Of a DNA stretch of 64,000 nt, positions 1-4,675 are shown in pieces. Location: NCBI RefSeq assembly GCF_014197755.1, contig NZ_JACIGE010000016.1, positions 1-64,000 of the forward strand, in the 5' to 3' direction. Source of the DNA: Rhodocyclus tenuis. Its GTDB lineage: Bacteria > Pseudomonadota > Gammaproteobacteria > Burkholderiales > Rhodocyclaceae. Within the stretch, counting starts at the first letter, position 1, and each line of letters opens with the position of its first letter. Position numbers and translations under genes: made by a program. The notes beneath the pieces were generated by a model. It saw only the letters and a list, made by a program, of their open reading frames with translations, was not told the DNA's origin and ran no database searches.

Positions 1-24
1 TTCTTCGGTAAAGCGCTTCTTCAT
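1..24 (-). CDS. 5' end of an IS3-family transposase OrfA (runs off the window)
   Basis: Only eight codons lie in the window, reading MKKRFTEE, which is the usual opening of IS3-family OrfA helix-turn-helix proteins. A strong ribosome-binding site (AAGGAG on the minus strand, positions 32-37) sits seven bases before the ATG, so the start is well supported. The rest lies left of the window. OrfA normally makes the transposase together with OrfB by frameshifting. The assignment rests on a very short stretch plus the context of a broken neighbouring gene. Confidence 0.6.
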
Positions 25-64
25 GTCCAATCTCCTTGTCGTCGTGGATTGGACTCTAAAGTCA
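1..64 (-). mobile_element. End of an IS3-family insertion sequence
   Basis: Read on the minus strand, the sequence from about 64 downward begins TGACTTTAGAGTCC and leads through a ribosome-binding site into an OrfA start. IS3-family ends commonly begin with TG. The tnsA-like reading frame to the right stops at the TGA that would be the first bases of the element, as expected if the IS inserted into that gene. The other end and the target duplication are outside the window, so the exact border is inferred. Confidence 0.5.
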
Positions 65-385
65 CGCGCTACTCAATTCGGGGGGGACGTCGGCGGCGTA
101 ATGGACGACTACATCGGGGGTGTATTCCTTGACGTTCCCTCCCTCAGAAGTCGTCCAGCGCAGGGTGATTGGCTGAACACCGATTCGCACCACCCTTGGG
201 GCGATGTCCAGCAAAATGAGGAAATCGCGCTCAAGCAGCGATTCAAACGCCTGCGACTGTGCGGCCTTGCGCGTGGAGACACGGCCGGTGTTCTTGACCG
301 GACTCGGACCAATTTTCCGAGTGGGGGTGGTGCCAGCCAAACTGCCAAAGGATTCAAGCCAGTGATATTTAAAATATCTAGCCAT
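62..385 (-). pseudogene. tnsA: Truncated TnsA-like transposon endonuclease
   Basis: A 107-residue frame resembling the N-terminal part of TnsA, the restriction-like nuclease that cuts the 5' ends of Tn7-family transposons and works with TnsB and TnsC. Visible family features are ESLLERDFLILL, with the first catalytic Glu, and YTPDVVV, with the catalytic Asp. The catalytic Lys region and the C-terminal domain are missing, because the frame ends where the IS3 element begins. Full TnsA proteins are roughly 220-270 residues. The ATG at 385-383 lacks a clear ribosome-binding site. tnsBCD would lie to the left if still present. Family identity is from motif recognition only. Confidence 0.6.
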
Positions 386-552
386 GGTCGCGCCCTAGTG
401 CCCGGCAAGATCATAGTACAAATGCGTAAATAGTGCCTAGCTGCGTACAGGAGGCTGAGAGCTAGGAAGCTGTGCGCGAAGAACTCTAAGTAGCAGTCTG
501 AACGATGATCAGGCTGTTCGCAGTTATCATGATTTGAGTTCGCAAATATCGA
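386..552. mobile_element. Presumed right end of the Tn7-like element, upstream of tnsA
   Basis: These roughly 160 bases separate the tnsA start from the point where the comEC frame becomes recognisable. In Tn7 relatives the stretch between tnsA and the transposon tip carries several TnsB-binding repeats of about 20-22 bp. Here GTTCGCAGTTATC (516-528) and GTTCGCAAATATC (538-550) match at 11 of 13 positions with a 22-bp spacing. A clear terminal TGT/ACA was not found, so the tip is not fixed. The region looks less GC-rich than the genes to its right. Confidence 0.35.
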
Positions 553-1940
553 TGTTGTTTGGACTGTGGTCGGGGCGTCACTTCGGTGCGGCGCGCACCT
601 TGCTGCTCGCCTTGCTGGTCGTTCTGCTGCTCGATCCGTGGGCGGTGCTGGCAGCAGGCTTCTGGCTGTCATTCGGCGCCGTCGGCGTGTTGCTCTACAT
701 TGGCGTGCCGCGCATCGGCGTCGTCTCGGGCTGGCGCGAGCGGATCATGCACTGGGGGCTGACACAGTGGGCGGTGACGGTCGGCAGCGTACCGCTGCTG
801 CTCCTGCTCTTCCAGCAGTTTTCGCTGGTGTCGCCGCTGGCCAACGCGCTGGCGATTCCGGTGGTGAGCTTCGTCATCACACCGCTCGCCTTGCTCTACG
901 CCGTGCTGCCGTGGCCGCCGCTGATCGCTCTCGACCACGAGTTGCTGGCGCTCCTGATGCGCTGGCTCGAAGCGCTCGGCGACTGGCCGCAGTGGCAGCA
1001 AGCAGCGCCACCCTTGCCGGCGGTTCTGCTGGCCGTGCTTGGCGTCGCCTGCCTGCTGCTGCCGCGCGGTTTTCCGGCGCGCTGGCTCGGTGCGGTCCTG
1101 CTTCTGCCGGCCTTACTGACGCCGCCGCTGCGTCCGCCGGCGGGCGAGGTGTGGCTTGATGTGCTCGATGTCGGCCACGGTCTGGCGGTGGTCGTGCGCA
1201 CGCAGACGCATGCGCTGCTTTACGACACCGGTCCGCGCTACGGCGGCGACGCCGACGCCGGCCAGCGTGTCGTCGTTCCCTTCCTGCGCGCGGCCGGTGT
1301 CGAGCGACTCGATACGCTGCTCGTTTCGCACCGCGATAACGACCACGCCGGCGGCACCGAGTCGGTGCTTGGCGCGGTTCCGGTTGCGCGCGTGCTTTCG
1401 TCGGTGGCCGGGCTGGCCGGTGAGCGCTGCGTCGCCGGGCAGGCGTGGGACTGGGACGGCGTGCGTTTTCGCGTGCTGCATCCGTTGGCGGCGGCGTATG
1501 AGAAGTCGACGGCGAGCAACCATCTTTCCTGCGTGCTGCGCATCGACAGCGCTGGCGGGCGTTCAGCGCTGCTGGTCGGCGACATTGAAACACCCGACGA
1601 GGCGGCGTTGCTGGCGCGCGCGGCAGCAGCGACCGCTGCCGCTGGCCCAAGGACAGCTTCGCCGCTCAACAGCGACGTGCTGGTCGCGCCGCACCACGGC
1701 AGCCGCACTTCGTCCTCGCTGCCCTTCGTTGCTGCGGTTGCGCCAAGCGAGGTGGTGTTTACCGTCGGCTACCGCGACCGCTTCGGCCACCCGGTGCCCG
1801 AAGTGGCGGCGCGCTACGCCGCGGCGCGGCAGTGGCGTAGCGACCGCGACGGCGAGCTGAGCTTCGTTCTCGCCGGAAGCGTGAGCGCGGCCGCGTGGCG
1901 TCAGCAATACCGGCGCTACTGGCACTGGCGCGAGCAATGA
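534..1940 (+). pseudogene. comEC: ComEC/Rec2 DNA-uptake channel, 5'-truncated
   Basis: ComEC forms the inner-membrane channel that brings single-stranded DNA into the cell during transformation. This 468-codon frame holds only the later membrane segments of the competence domain (recognisable from LWSGRHFG near 561 onward) and the complete C-terminal metallo-beta-lactamase-like domain with its metal motif SHRDNDHAGG and DVGHG. Intact betaproteobacterial proteins are about 750-850 residues, so the N-terminal OB domain and first helices are gone. The possible starts (TTG 534, ATG 552) are accidental. The lost half is replaced by transposon-like DNA, so transformation through this gene is probably abolished. 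Confidence 0.8.
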
Positions 1941-2927: not shown

Positions 2928-3049
2928 ACGCTCAGGCATCCCGGATGGTCGCTACAAGAACGCTGGCAAGCGTCGAAGAATCGCTGCTATCGCCAGTCTT
3001 GACTGCTGTGGCATGATGCCGTCCAAATTTCTGCCGTGAGGGGCTCACC

Positions 3050-4675
3050 ATGATTGACCGACTTTCCGTGAAAGCGCGCCTCGCCGTTCTGGTGTCGATT
3101 CTCTCGTTGCTCATGCTCGCGGTTGGCGGCCTTGGCCTGTTCGCTGCCGCGTCAATCAAGGACCGCTTGCAGACGGTTTACGAAGACCGCACCGTTACCG
3201 CTTTCCAGTTGGCGATCGTGATGGACAACCTGCACCGTTCCCGCGGTCGTATCTGGGCGGCGATGCTGGTCGATGATCCCGAGAAGGCGGCCAGGGAAGT
3301 CGAAGGAATCGCCGGCTTCCTGAAACTGAGCGACGGGCAGTGGAGCGCCTATCAGGCGACCTACCTGACGCCCGAGGAAAAGGTTCTGGCGACGAGTTTC
3401 GATGCCCATTACCAGGAATTCAAGCGCACGCTGGCGACACTCGGCCCCGTAGCCGCCGGCGGCGACCGCGCGCGGACCGCCGAGGCGGATGCCGCGTCGG
3501 GCTTCCGCAAGACCTTCACCGCGGCACGCGAGGAGCTGAACAAACTTGTCGAACTGCAGGCACGCGTCGCCCGCGAGGAATACGACGCGGCGATCGGCGA
3601 TTACCAACAGCTCCGCCTGGCTGCAGGCGCGCTGATCGCTTGCGGATTGCTGCTCGGTATCGGCATCGCCTGGGTGATCATCCGCTCGATCACGCAGCCG
3701 CTCGACGCCGCCGTCGCCTCGGCGCAGCGCATCGCCCAAGGTGATCTGACGCAGCCGGTGCCGCCCGGCGCCGGCGCCGAACTCGGGCGCCTGCTCGACG
3801 CCATGGGCGAGATGCAGTCGGCGCTCAAGGGCGTCGTCGCTGCCATCACGCAGGACGCGACACGCGTTGCCGAGACGGCACAGCAGCTGGCGACCTCGTC
3901 GACAGAAGTGGCCATGGCCTCGGGCATGCAGAGCGAAGCGACGGCGGCGATCGCCGCCTCGGTCGAAGAGATGACGGTCAGCATCAGCCACATCAACGGC
4001 CGTACCGCCGATACGCGCGAGCTGTCGCAGCGGGTCGGCGAACTGTCGGAGAACGGCGCGCAGGTTACCGCACGCGCCACCGGCAGCGTCGAGGGAATCG
4101 CCAGCAGCGTCGATCTGGCGTCGGCGCAGATCGATGACCTCAGTCACAAGATCGACCGGGTGTCCGGCATCGTCAAGGTAATCAGTGAAATCGCCGATCA
4201 GACCAACCTGCTGGCGCTCAATGCCGCCATCGAGGCGGCGCGTGCCGGCGAGCAGGGTCGAGGTTTCGCCGTGGTCGCCGACGAAGTGCGCAAACTCGCC
4301 GAGCGTACTGCGACGTCGACGCAGGAAATCAGCGCGGTCATCGGCGAAATCCTCGCCTCTGCCAGCGACTCGGTCTCCAGCATGAAACAGAGCGTCGGGC
4401 AGGTGGCCGTCGGTGTGCGGCTGTCCGGTGATGCCGGCGAGGCGATCCGGCAGATCCAGACGCTGGACCGCGAGCTCGGCAGCGCAGTAAACGAGATCGC
4501 CGAGGCGCTGCACGAACAAAGCCAGGCCAGCACGGAAATCGCGCGGCAGGTGGAGCGGATCGCGCAGGCGACCGAGGAAAATAGCGCCACCATCAAGGCG
4601 ACGGCCGAGGCATCGGAAAATCTGAACGCGCTCGGCCAGTCGCTGGTGCGCTCGGTGTCGGCGTTCCGCGTCTAG
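3050..4675 (+). CDS. Methyl-accepting chemotaxis protein
   Basis: A 541-residue chemoreceptor. Membrane helix 1 is at about residues 10-34, followed by a roughly 150-residue periplasmic helical domain of four-helix-bundle type, helix 2 at about 188-210, a HAMP domain to about 262, and the long coiled signalling domain. The conserved hairpin tip ([20 protein letters not shown], near 380) binds CheA/CheW. The C terminus ends in SAFRV and lacks an NWETF-type tether for CheR/CheB. It is a single gene without che neighbours; the ligand is unknown. Confidence 0.93.

Follow-up and report, generated by a model that had tools for sequence, protein, structure and literature searches.

The window (the whole stretch of 64,000 nucleotides that was analysed) opens with the end of an IS3-type element, part of a tnsA-like gene and a comEC gene that begins in mid-protein. 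The product of comEC is the DNA-import channel of natural transformation, and the locus raises the question of whether a Tn7-like transposon broke this gene and, if so, whether it landed there by accident or at an attachment site. An earlier note on this DNA had proposed such an insertion, followed by inactivation through the IS or by loss of material. We consider it likely that a Tn7-like lineage uses comEC as its attachment site and that the window holds the right-hand stump of a site-specific insertion. The relevant features of the window are as follows.

1–92, minus strand: left end of the IS3-type element, present in nine copies, running leftward off the contig (orfA ATG at 22–24, minus strand; terminal repeat reaching 92)
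92–385, minus strand: first 98 codons of tnsA, which the IS truncates shortly past the TPD motif (from NF033179 and identity to TnsA of genome G995)
93–563, no strand: right-hand remnant of the Tn7-like element, outer terminus at 563, reading inward TCCAAACAAC (from the duplication and the matching TNCAAACAAC ends)
517–522, minus strand: inner TGCGAA end repeat, a putative second site of the transposase-binding type, 42 from the terminus
539–544, minus strand: outer TGCGAA end repeat, lying 20 bp inside the terminus
564–568, no strand: right copy of the 5-bp target duplication CTGTG (left copy at C22:2948–2952; empty site in G450)
564–1940, plus strand: 3′ part of comEC, with the rest of the Competence domain and a metallo-beta-lactamase-type domain (PF03772, PF00753)

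Position 1 of the window is the end of a contig of the host genome, G000 (G000:C16:1), so that the assembly itself breaks off at the IS border. Nine left ends of this IS, all at contig ends and including that of the window, are identical up to position 92 and different beyond it, which places the IS end at 92 and not at 62. The earlier note was right that an IS3-type end abuts the tnsA-like frame, and the IS does cut tnsA; the border has to be moved from 62 to 92. The last residues of the 62–385 frame (to 62) lie inside the IS and the real tnsA codons are those of 92–385. The nine right ends in G000 are 99–100% identical. The ends themselves were seen, as were 4-bp duplications at six copies, and orfA is known from a diverged copy on C14, where it carries Pfam HTH_Tnp_1 (E 7.6e-24). 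According to PMC8649781, no other mobile elements are found nested within Tn7-like transposons as often as those of the IS3 type, which occur in ~30% of them. At 902–984 of L006, within the transposon stump on contig C22, lies a diverged end from a related element of the IS3 type, with 84% identity to the multicopy IS.

The suggestion that 62–385 be searched with TnsA profiles gave a divided result: NCBIfam NF033179 hit the fragment (E 1.6e-10; 40.8 bits, below the full-length cut-off of 110), whereas Pfam PF08722 stayed below its cut-off (19.8 bits against 26.5; E 0.0012; 35 residues matched), and a PF08722 search of the genome listed three other loci and not this frame. The fragment is 79% identical over 91 residues (80% in the family search) to the full-length TnsA of G995, which precedes tnsB, tnsC and tniQ. 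The FEVKPR stretch that follows the TPD motif in the latter is missing from the window; we take the part of TnsA that contains it to have a catalytic role. As in other Tn7-like elements, the IS-truncated gene lies near one transposon end and reads inward. Matches to the fragment were obtained in 31 of 395 genomes of the family (G995 far ahead, the next at 52%) and in 27 of 349 genomes of the order, G000 being included in both counts; no relatives were found in viral contigs, and the TnsA relatives in 23 plasmid records were all less than 60% identical to it.

The claim that comEC begins mid-protein is correct, with its first letters at 564 and not at the TTG at 534. This 3′ part scored 104 bits with PF03772 and 39.5 bits with PF00753. 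The 5′ half, which the earlier note reported missing, has not been lost through a simple deletion: it is present on contig C22 (L006) at 2948–4059, minus strand, where it carries PF13567 and positions 1–95 of PF03772 and ends at the other transposon end. The empty site, proposed to be sought in a close relative, is seen in the same-genus genome G450, in which the two halves abut with exactly five shared bases; CTGTG (564–568) is therefore a 5-bp target duplication, as expected of a Tn7-like element. It ends 44 bp past the start of the conserved QRT codons of comEC. The C22-side junction reads GCGCTGTG then TACAAACAAC and the window-side junction GTTGTTTGGA then CTGTGGTCGG. With both junctions, the duplication and a gene that is unsplit in two congeners (G450 and G402, where comM is unsplit as well), a Tn7-like insertion in comEC is confirmed.

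The terminus at 563 was set by the duplication and by the TNCAAACAAC match to the element's own left end and to the G995 element. The spacer of about 160 bases that had been noted between tnsA and comEC does exist, at 178 bp (386–563), and proves to be the transposon end rather than filler. Putative transposase-binding repeats, [TC]GCGAA, occur at 20 and 42 bp from the right terminus and at 20, 40 and 60 bp from the left one, several near each end as in Tn7-like transposons; the copy 20 bp from the terminus is CGCGAA in the left end, and TGCGAA stands at this distance in the comM element of G000 as well, at its right end (see below). The usual termini of Tn7-like elements are TGT...ACA, but those of the comEC elements are not TGT: they are TAC and TCC in G000, and TGC and TAC in G995.

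The other side of the insertion was located on C22.

C22:93–2947: left stump, with the left end, a 109-aa ORF, a 217-aa ORF and ORF1
C22:96–701, minus strand: ORF1, cut by the IS, from a family of ~530–580 aa

Neither the 109-aa nor the 217-aa ORF gave a significant family match; 256 plasmid records contain relatives of the 217-aa ORF. ORF1 is probably a TnsE-type protein, an assignment better supported by gene order than by structure. Among the 84,980 species of the genome collection 29 relatives were found, and in 13 of these loci tns or tniQ genes lie within 10 kb, on the opposite strand in 10 and the same strand in three. Two of the three same-strand relatives directly follow tniQ, which is the tnsABCDE order of Tn7, and the opposite-strand placement is the Tn6022 layout in the part of PMC10293859 that describes it. 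That account, of a divergent TnsE on the opposite strand with a PriB-like N part, fits ORF1. A model of an ORF1 relative (pLDDT 75) aligned by VIA-align with PriB (Z 5.5 and 5.3; residues 91–283) and with the TnsE C-terminal domain (Z 5.0, 4.8 and 4.7; residues 414–528), both of which are weak alone. Foldseek returned nothing at E <= 0.001; 21 proteins of the family gave nothing better than E 0.028 against Pfam/NCBIfam, and the family nothing better than E 0.59 against PDB sequences. On Deinococcus gobiensis plasmid P3 (NC_017771.1, 228473–18944 across the origin), tnsABC-tniQ on one side and an ORF1-family protein on the other face each other over ~22 kb, which reproduces the convergent arrangement in a distant phylum.

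Apart from the tnsA fragment, the core of the element is absent from both stumps, and the IS gap between them is unsequenced. Genes close to tnsB, tnsC and tniQ of G995 were not found in the loci of G000 that were examined, the five from the TniQ family search included; the best matches (tnsB 43.6% over 195 residues, tnsC 45.6%, tniQ 31%) all lie in the comM element. Six of the nine left IS ends have the same 4-bp flank as a right end (GGAG, CGAG, AGAG, ACGC, CCCT and GAAT), and in our reading these flanks pair contigs. The flanks of the C16 end (CCGC) and the C22 start (AGAT) match no other end: no IS right end in the assembly begins with CCGC, as a continuation of tnsA would, and no left end carries the AGAT expected beyond the ORF cut on C22. 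The simplest reading is that recombination between two IS copies of the same orientation inside the transposon deleted its middle; since the gap is unsequenced and three left ends and three right ends of the IS have no partner, we infer this deletion rather than observe it, and the join of C16 to C22 is likewise one of logic, with other joins possible among those ends. Inactivation by the IS, as the earlier note had it, is correct insofar as an IS3-type element cut tnsA, and its alternative of lost material is likely, no IS flank continuing tnsA and no close tnsB, tnsC or tniQ having turned up in those loci.

The G995 element sits at the same place in comEC.

G995 C10:856383–856889: comEC 3′ part, beside the element
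G995 C17:32473–32772: comEC 5′ part, on another contig, broken at the same profile position as in G000

Its junctions read GCGATGT then TGCAAACAACC, and GGTTGTTTGTA then GATGTTGTCC, with the 5-bp duplication GATGT. The insertion lies 1 bp 5′ of the G000 break and in the same orientation, the tnsA side facing the comEC 3′ part in both. In order the element carries tnsA, tnsB, tnsC, tniQ (386 aa) and a TnsE-type gene, and two ORFs separate tnsA from the transposon end; the TnsE-type ORF stands 111 bp beyond tniQ and no tnsF (tniE) follows. Identity between the two elements is 77.8% over 63 bp at the left ends and 74.5% over 47 bp at the right. Between their TnsE-type genes it is no more than 37.6%, and these genes also differ in orientation (opposite to tnsA in G000, provided C16 and C22 join, and on the core strand in G995), so the elements are not simple copies. 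This TnsA type occurs in G000 and G995 only among the 395 family genomes, and comEC is split in both. The recurrence at comEC comprises these two cases only.

A comEC match was present in 194 of 199 family genomes and, among the matches listed, an insertion-split gene was shown in G000 only; this survey gave positions for part of the matches, the rest being judged from match number and E-value. Of 35 genomes picked for TnsA relatives, G995 alone has an element-split comEC; in 33 others there is a single full match, accompanied in G1051 by a second, weak one. The remaining one, G467, was rejected as a split: its gene, in a single-contig genome, is a single open frame of 925 aa with an in-frame insert, ~260 bp, in the Competence domain (G467:C1:3036410–3037492). 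Other genomes with two matches were also rejected, G387, G407, G421 and G523 having a full-length match each and G500 two; G498 was left out of the count, its main match beginning at the edge of a contig and the first residues lying on a different one. No comEC was found beside ORF1 relatives (0 of 29 loci) or TnsA relatives (0 of 12 loci, and 0 of 57 within 1.5 kb, that of G995 being further off), and neither comEC nor comM in 20 further stretches of 1.3 to 15 kb.

An accidental landing in comEC, untargeted or of the replication-linked TnsE type and perhaps taken because comM was already occupied, would fit the probable TnsE-type nature of ORF1 near the left end, the occupied comM of G000 and its being the sole genome of the 199 with a shown insertion in comEC among the matches listed. 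We regard it as improbable, because the closest relative inserted within 1 bp and in the same orientation in another genus, and because the only two of the 395 family genomes with this TnsA type both have comEC split. TnsE is an unlikely guide, since the core and ends are shared while the TnsE-type genes are so dissimilar and differently placed. That the two genomes instead inherited one ancestral insertion, or that it moved together with flanking comEC DNA so that they are not independent, is suggested by the almost identical sites and by the sister position of the elements in the TnsA tree. Against this stand the duplications, which differ and are offset by 1 bp, a protein identity of only 54% between the comEC 3′ parts, and a comEC that is unsplit in those congeners of either host that were sampled (two of the genus of G000 and six of that of G995), all of which speak for two separate insertions; the TnsE-type genes, too, differ in sequence and orientation, and we hold a single event to be very improbable. 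Insertion through a CRISPR-associated RNA guide appears scarcely credible: most of the element is gone, and a guide could have gone with it, yet the one near match of 24 nt between remnant and comEC (21/24) is at chance level (5 of 226 control windows are as good) and ~180 bp away, and by eye there is no cas gene among the ORFs listed in the tnsA-B-C-tniQ-tnsE segment of G995.

If other Tn7-like elements are a guide to how the comEC site is chosen, TniQ, or a partner, would recognise a conserved comEC sequence and recruit TnsC, and TnsAB would join the ends there. In a motif-free measure of comEC conservation (69 loci offered, 64 distinct rows) the block from −53 to −23 ranked fourth, at 0.822 against a mean of 0.712, and the top three windows overlap within +51 to +116 of the break (0.83–0.85). 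A first count was discarded as biased, its rows having been picked by the motif itself (39 of 63 kept and 24 dropped, plus two split sites). The upstream block, 23–53 bp from the break, would presumably suit a TnsD-like footprint as in Tn7. IS3-type copies would have entered the element later, and the loss of the tnsA end, tnsBC, tniQ and the cargo is most likely due to IS–IS recombination or to a deletion next to an IS. The outcome would be a dead element in a split comEC, costing the host its DNA-import channel; the element would likely have gained in that the cell could no longer delete it by transformation.

The earlier note compared the locus with Tn6022-type islands in comM, and this parallel has become stronger: among TnsA relatives whose target is known, the next closest sit in comM. 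Of 57 TnsA relatives, 21 have comM no more than 1.5 kb from tnsA (9 of the 28 loci from the family and 12 of the 29 from the order); in longer stretches comM also appears at L053, L188 and L191. In a TnsA tree of 56 rows, in which the window row fills 37% of the columns and the G995 row is full length, the comEC pair (support 100/96) joins two elements in comM at codon ~76 (99/95, then 100/98); beyond the 100/98 branch lie 23 rows from the usual comM site and 29 without a known target. The root is a drawing choice; if it falls outside those four rows, comEC is nested among comM-users. The two codon ~76 elements, L118 (G028:C7, 5500–13815) and L217 (G417:C38, 12880–14133), are themselves Tn7-like and stand away from the usual codon ~280; comM of G028 is split a second time ~7 kb further on. 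They resemble the comEC elements as nearest TnsA neighbours in a competence gene with its 3′ part on the tnsA side, but their target is comM and, by eye, their ends are apparently TGT, unlike TNCAAACAAC. The G995 sister at the same comEC site and the split comM of G000 itself add to the parallel; the latter is listed here.

G000 C1:393464–393748 and 417939–418295: the matches to comM, which is split, with no full match

The element between them (within C1:393464–418295; L142, L143 and L009) has tnsABC, tniQ (337 aa), a gene of the ORF1 family (27% identical to ORF1 over 188 aligned positions), the duplication GGCGG and TGT ends. Its cargo includes JetA/JetB (Wadjet), a WYL regulator and the candidate defence gene PDC-S06. 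Each of two transformation-pathway genes of G000 is thus interrupted by its own element, and the two elements are distinct though related.

The insertion, its duplications, the recurrence and the tree are established at the level of sequence. As the comEC lineage groups with comM-inserted elements in the tree, the lineage has probably exchanged one transformation gene for another as its attachment site, comM for comEC; descent of the comEC lineage from comM-using, Tn6022-like ancestors is the best reading, with the direction of the shift inferred. It is conceivable, and we put it forward tentatively, that protein-guided insertion, once aimed at comM (at the usual site and at codon 76), was redirected to comEC, with the result that the pathway and not the DNA sequence is what is conserved, members repeatedly choosing genes whose loss stops transformation. 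It is rather unlikely, though to be taken seriously, that comEC is merely a conserved and dispensable landing site whose loss brings no advantage through blocked transformation; conserved blocks flank the break on both sides, as would be expected for any protein-recognised site. The placing of known-target relatives in comM at two positions would then be a coincidence, although 29 of the 56 rows have no known target. A shared attachment sequence between the usual comM site and comEC was rejected: a gapped score of 30 was equalled by 4 of 1014 control windows and is in the wrong register, and in the same register identity is 36/120 against a background of 33.8. The codon-76 site compared with comEC in codon register gave identities of 24–32 of 60 (rank 3 to 16 of ~780 offsets), other offsets being as high or higher and three of four comparisons with the G995 register at background, which makes this likeness a lead only.

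Among known systems, the Tn6022/AbaR-type elements in comM, as described in part of PMC10293859, share with the comEC elements the TnsA-type core, the opposite-strand TnsE-type gene (in G000, provided C16 and C22 join), the duplications and a transformation-gene target; they differ in that the target here is comEC, the termini are TNCAAACAAC and the G000 copy is a stump. The G995 sister also departs from the Tn6022 group, in which a short tniQ is followed by tnsF, in having no tnsF after its tniQ. Canonical Tn7 is guided by TnsD to attTn7 at glmS and lands harmlessly downstream of that gene. TnsA, the layout of end repeats, the 5-bp duplication and attachment near conserved coding sequence are common to both, but the comEC lineage splits its own target gene. 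A mefA cassette in pneumococcal comEC is presumably not Tn7-like. This unrelated Streptococcus element also breaks comEC and blocks transformation, according to sections of PMC4774983, so that a mobile element in comEC is not new; the same sections argue for escape from deletion by transformation as the benefit to the element. A passage of PMC11472951 indicates that inactivation of comEC drops strains below the transformability threshold used there. No Tn7-like element in comEC was found in the open-access literature searched, and the word comEC is absent from the main texts of PMC10293859 and PMC8649781.

Elements in comM are a standard example behind the view that mobile elements disable transformation to avoid curing, and a related lineage at a fixed site in a second, more decisive gene offers a natural test of this view. 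It adds comEC as a newly named attachment site, and the TniQ of G995 could serve in the study of how a Tn7-like selector is re-aimed. G000 contains two further loci with TnsA and TniQ (C14:10943–15579 and C15:18382–22237), and thus at least four Tn7-like elements or remnants. Two adjacent TniQ-family genes, with no TnsA match nearby, are located at C1:212469–213809.
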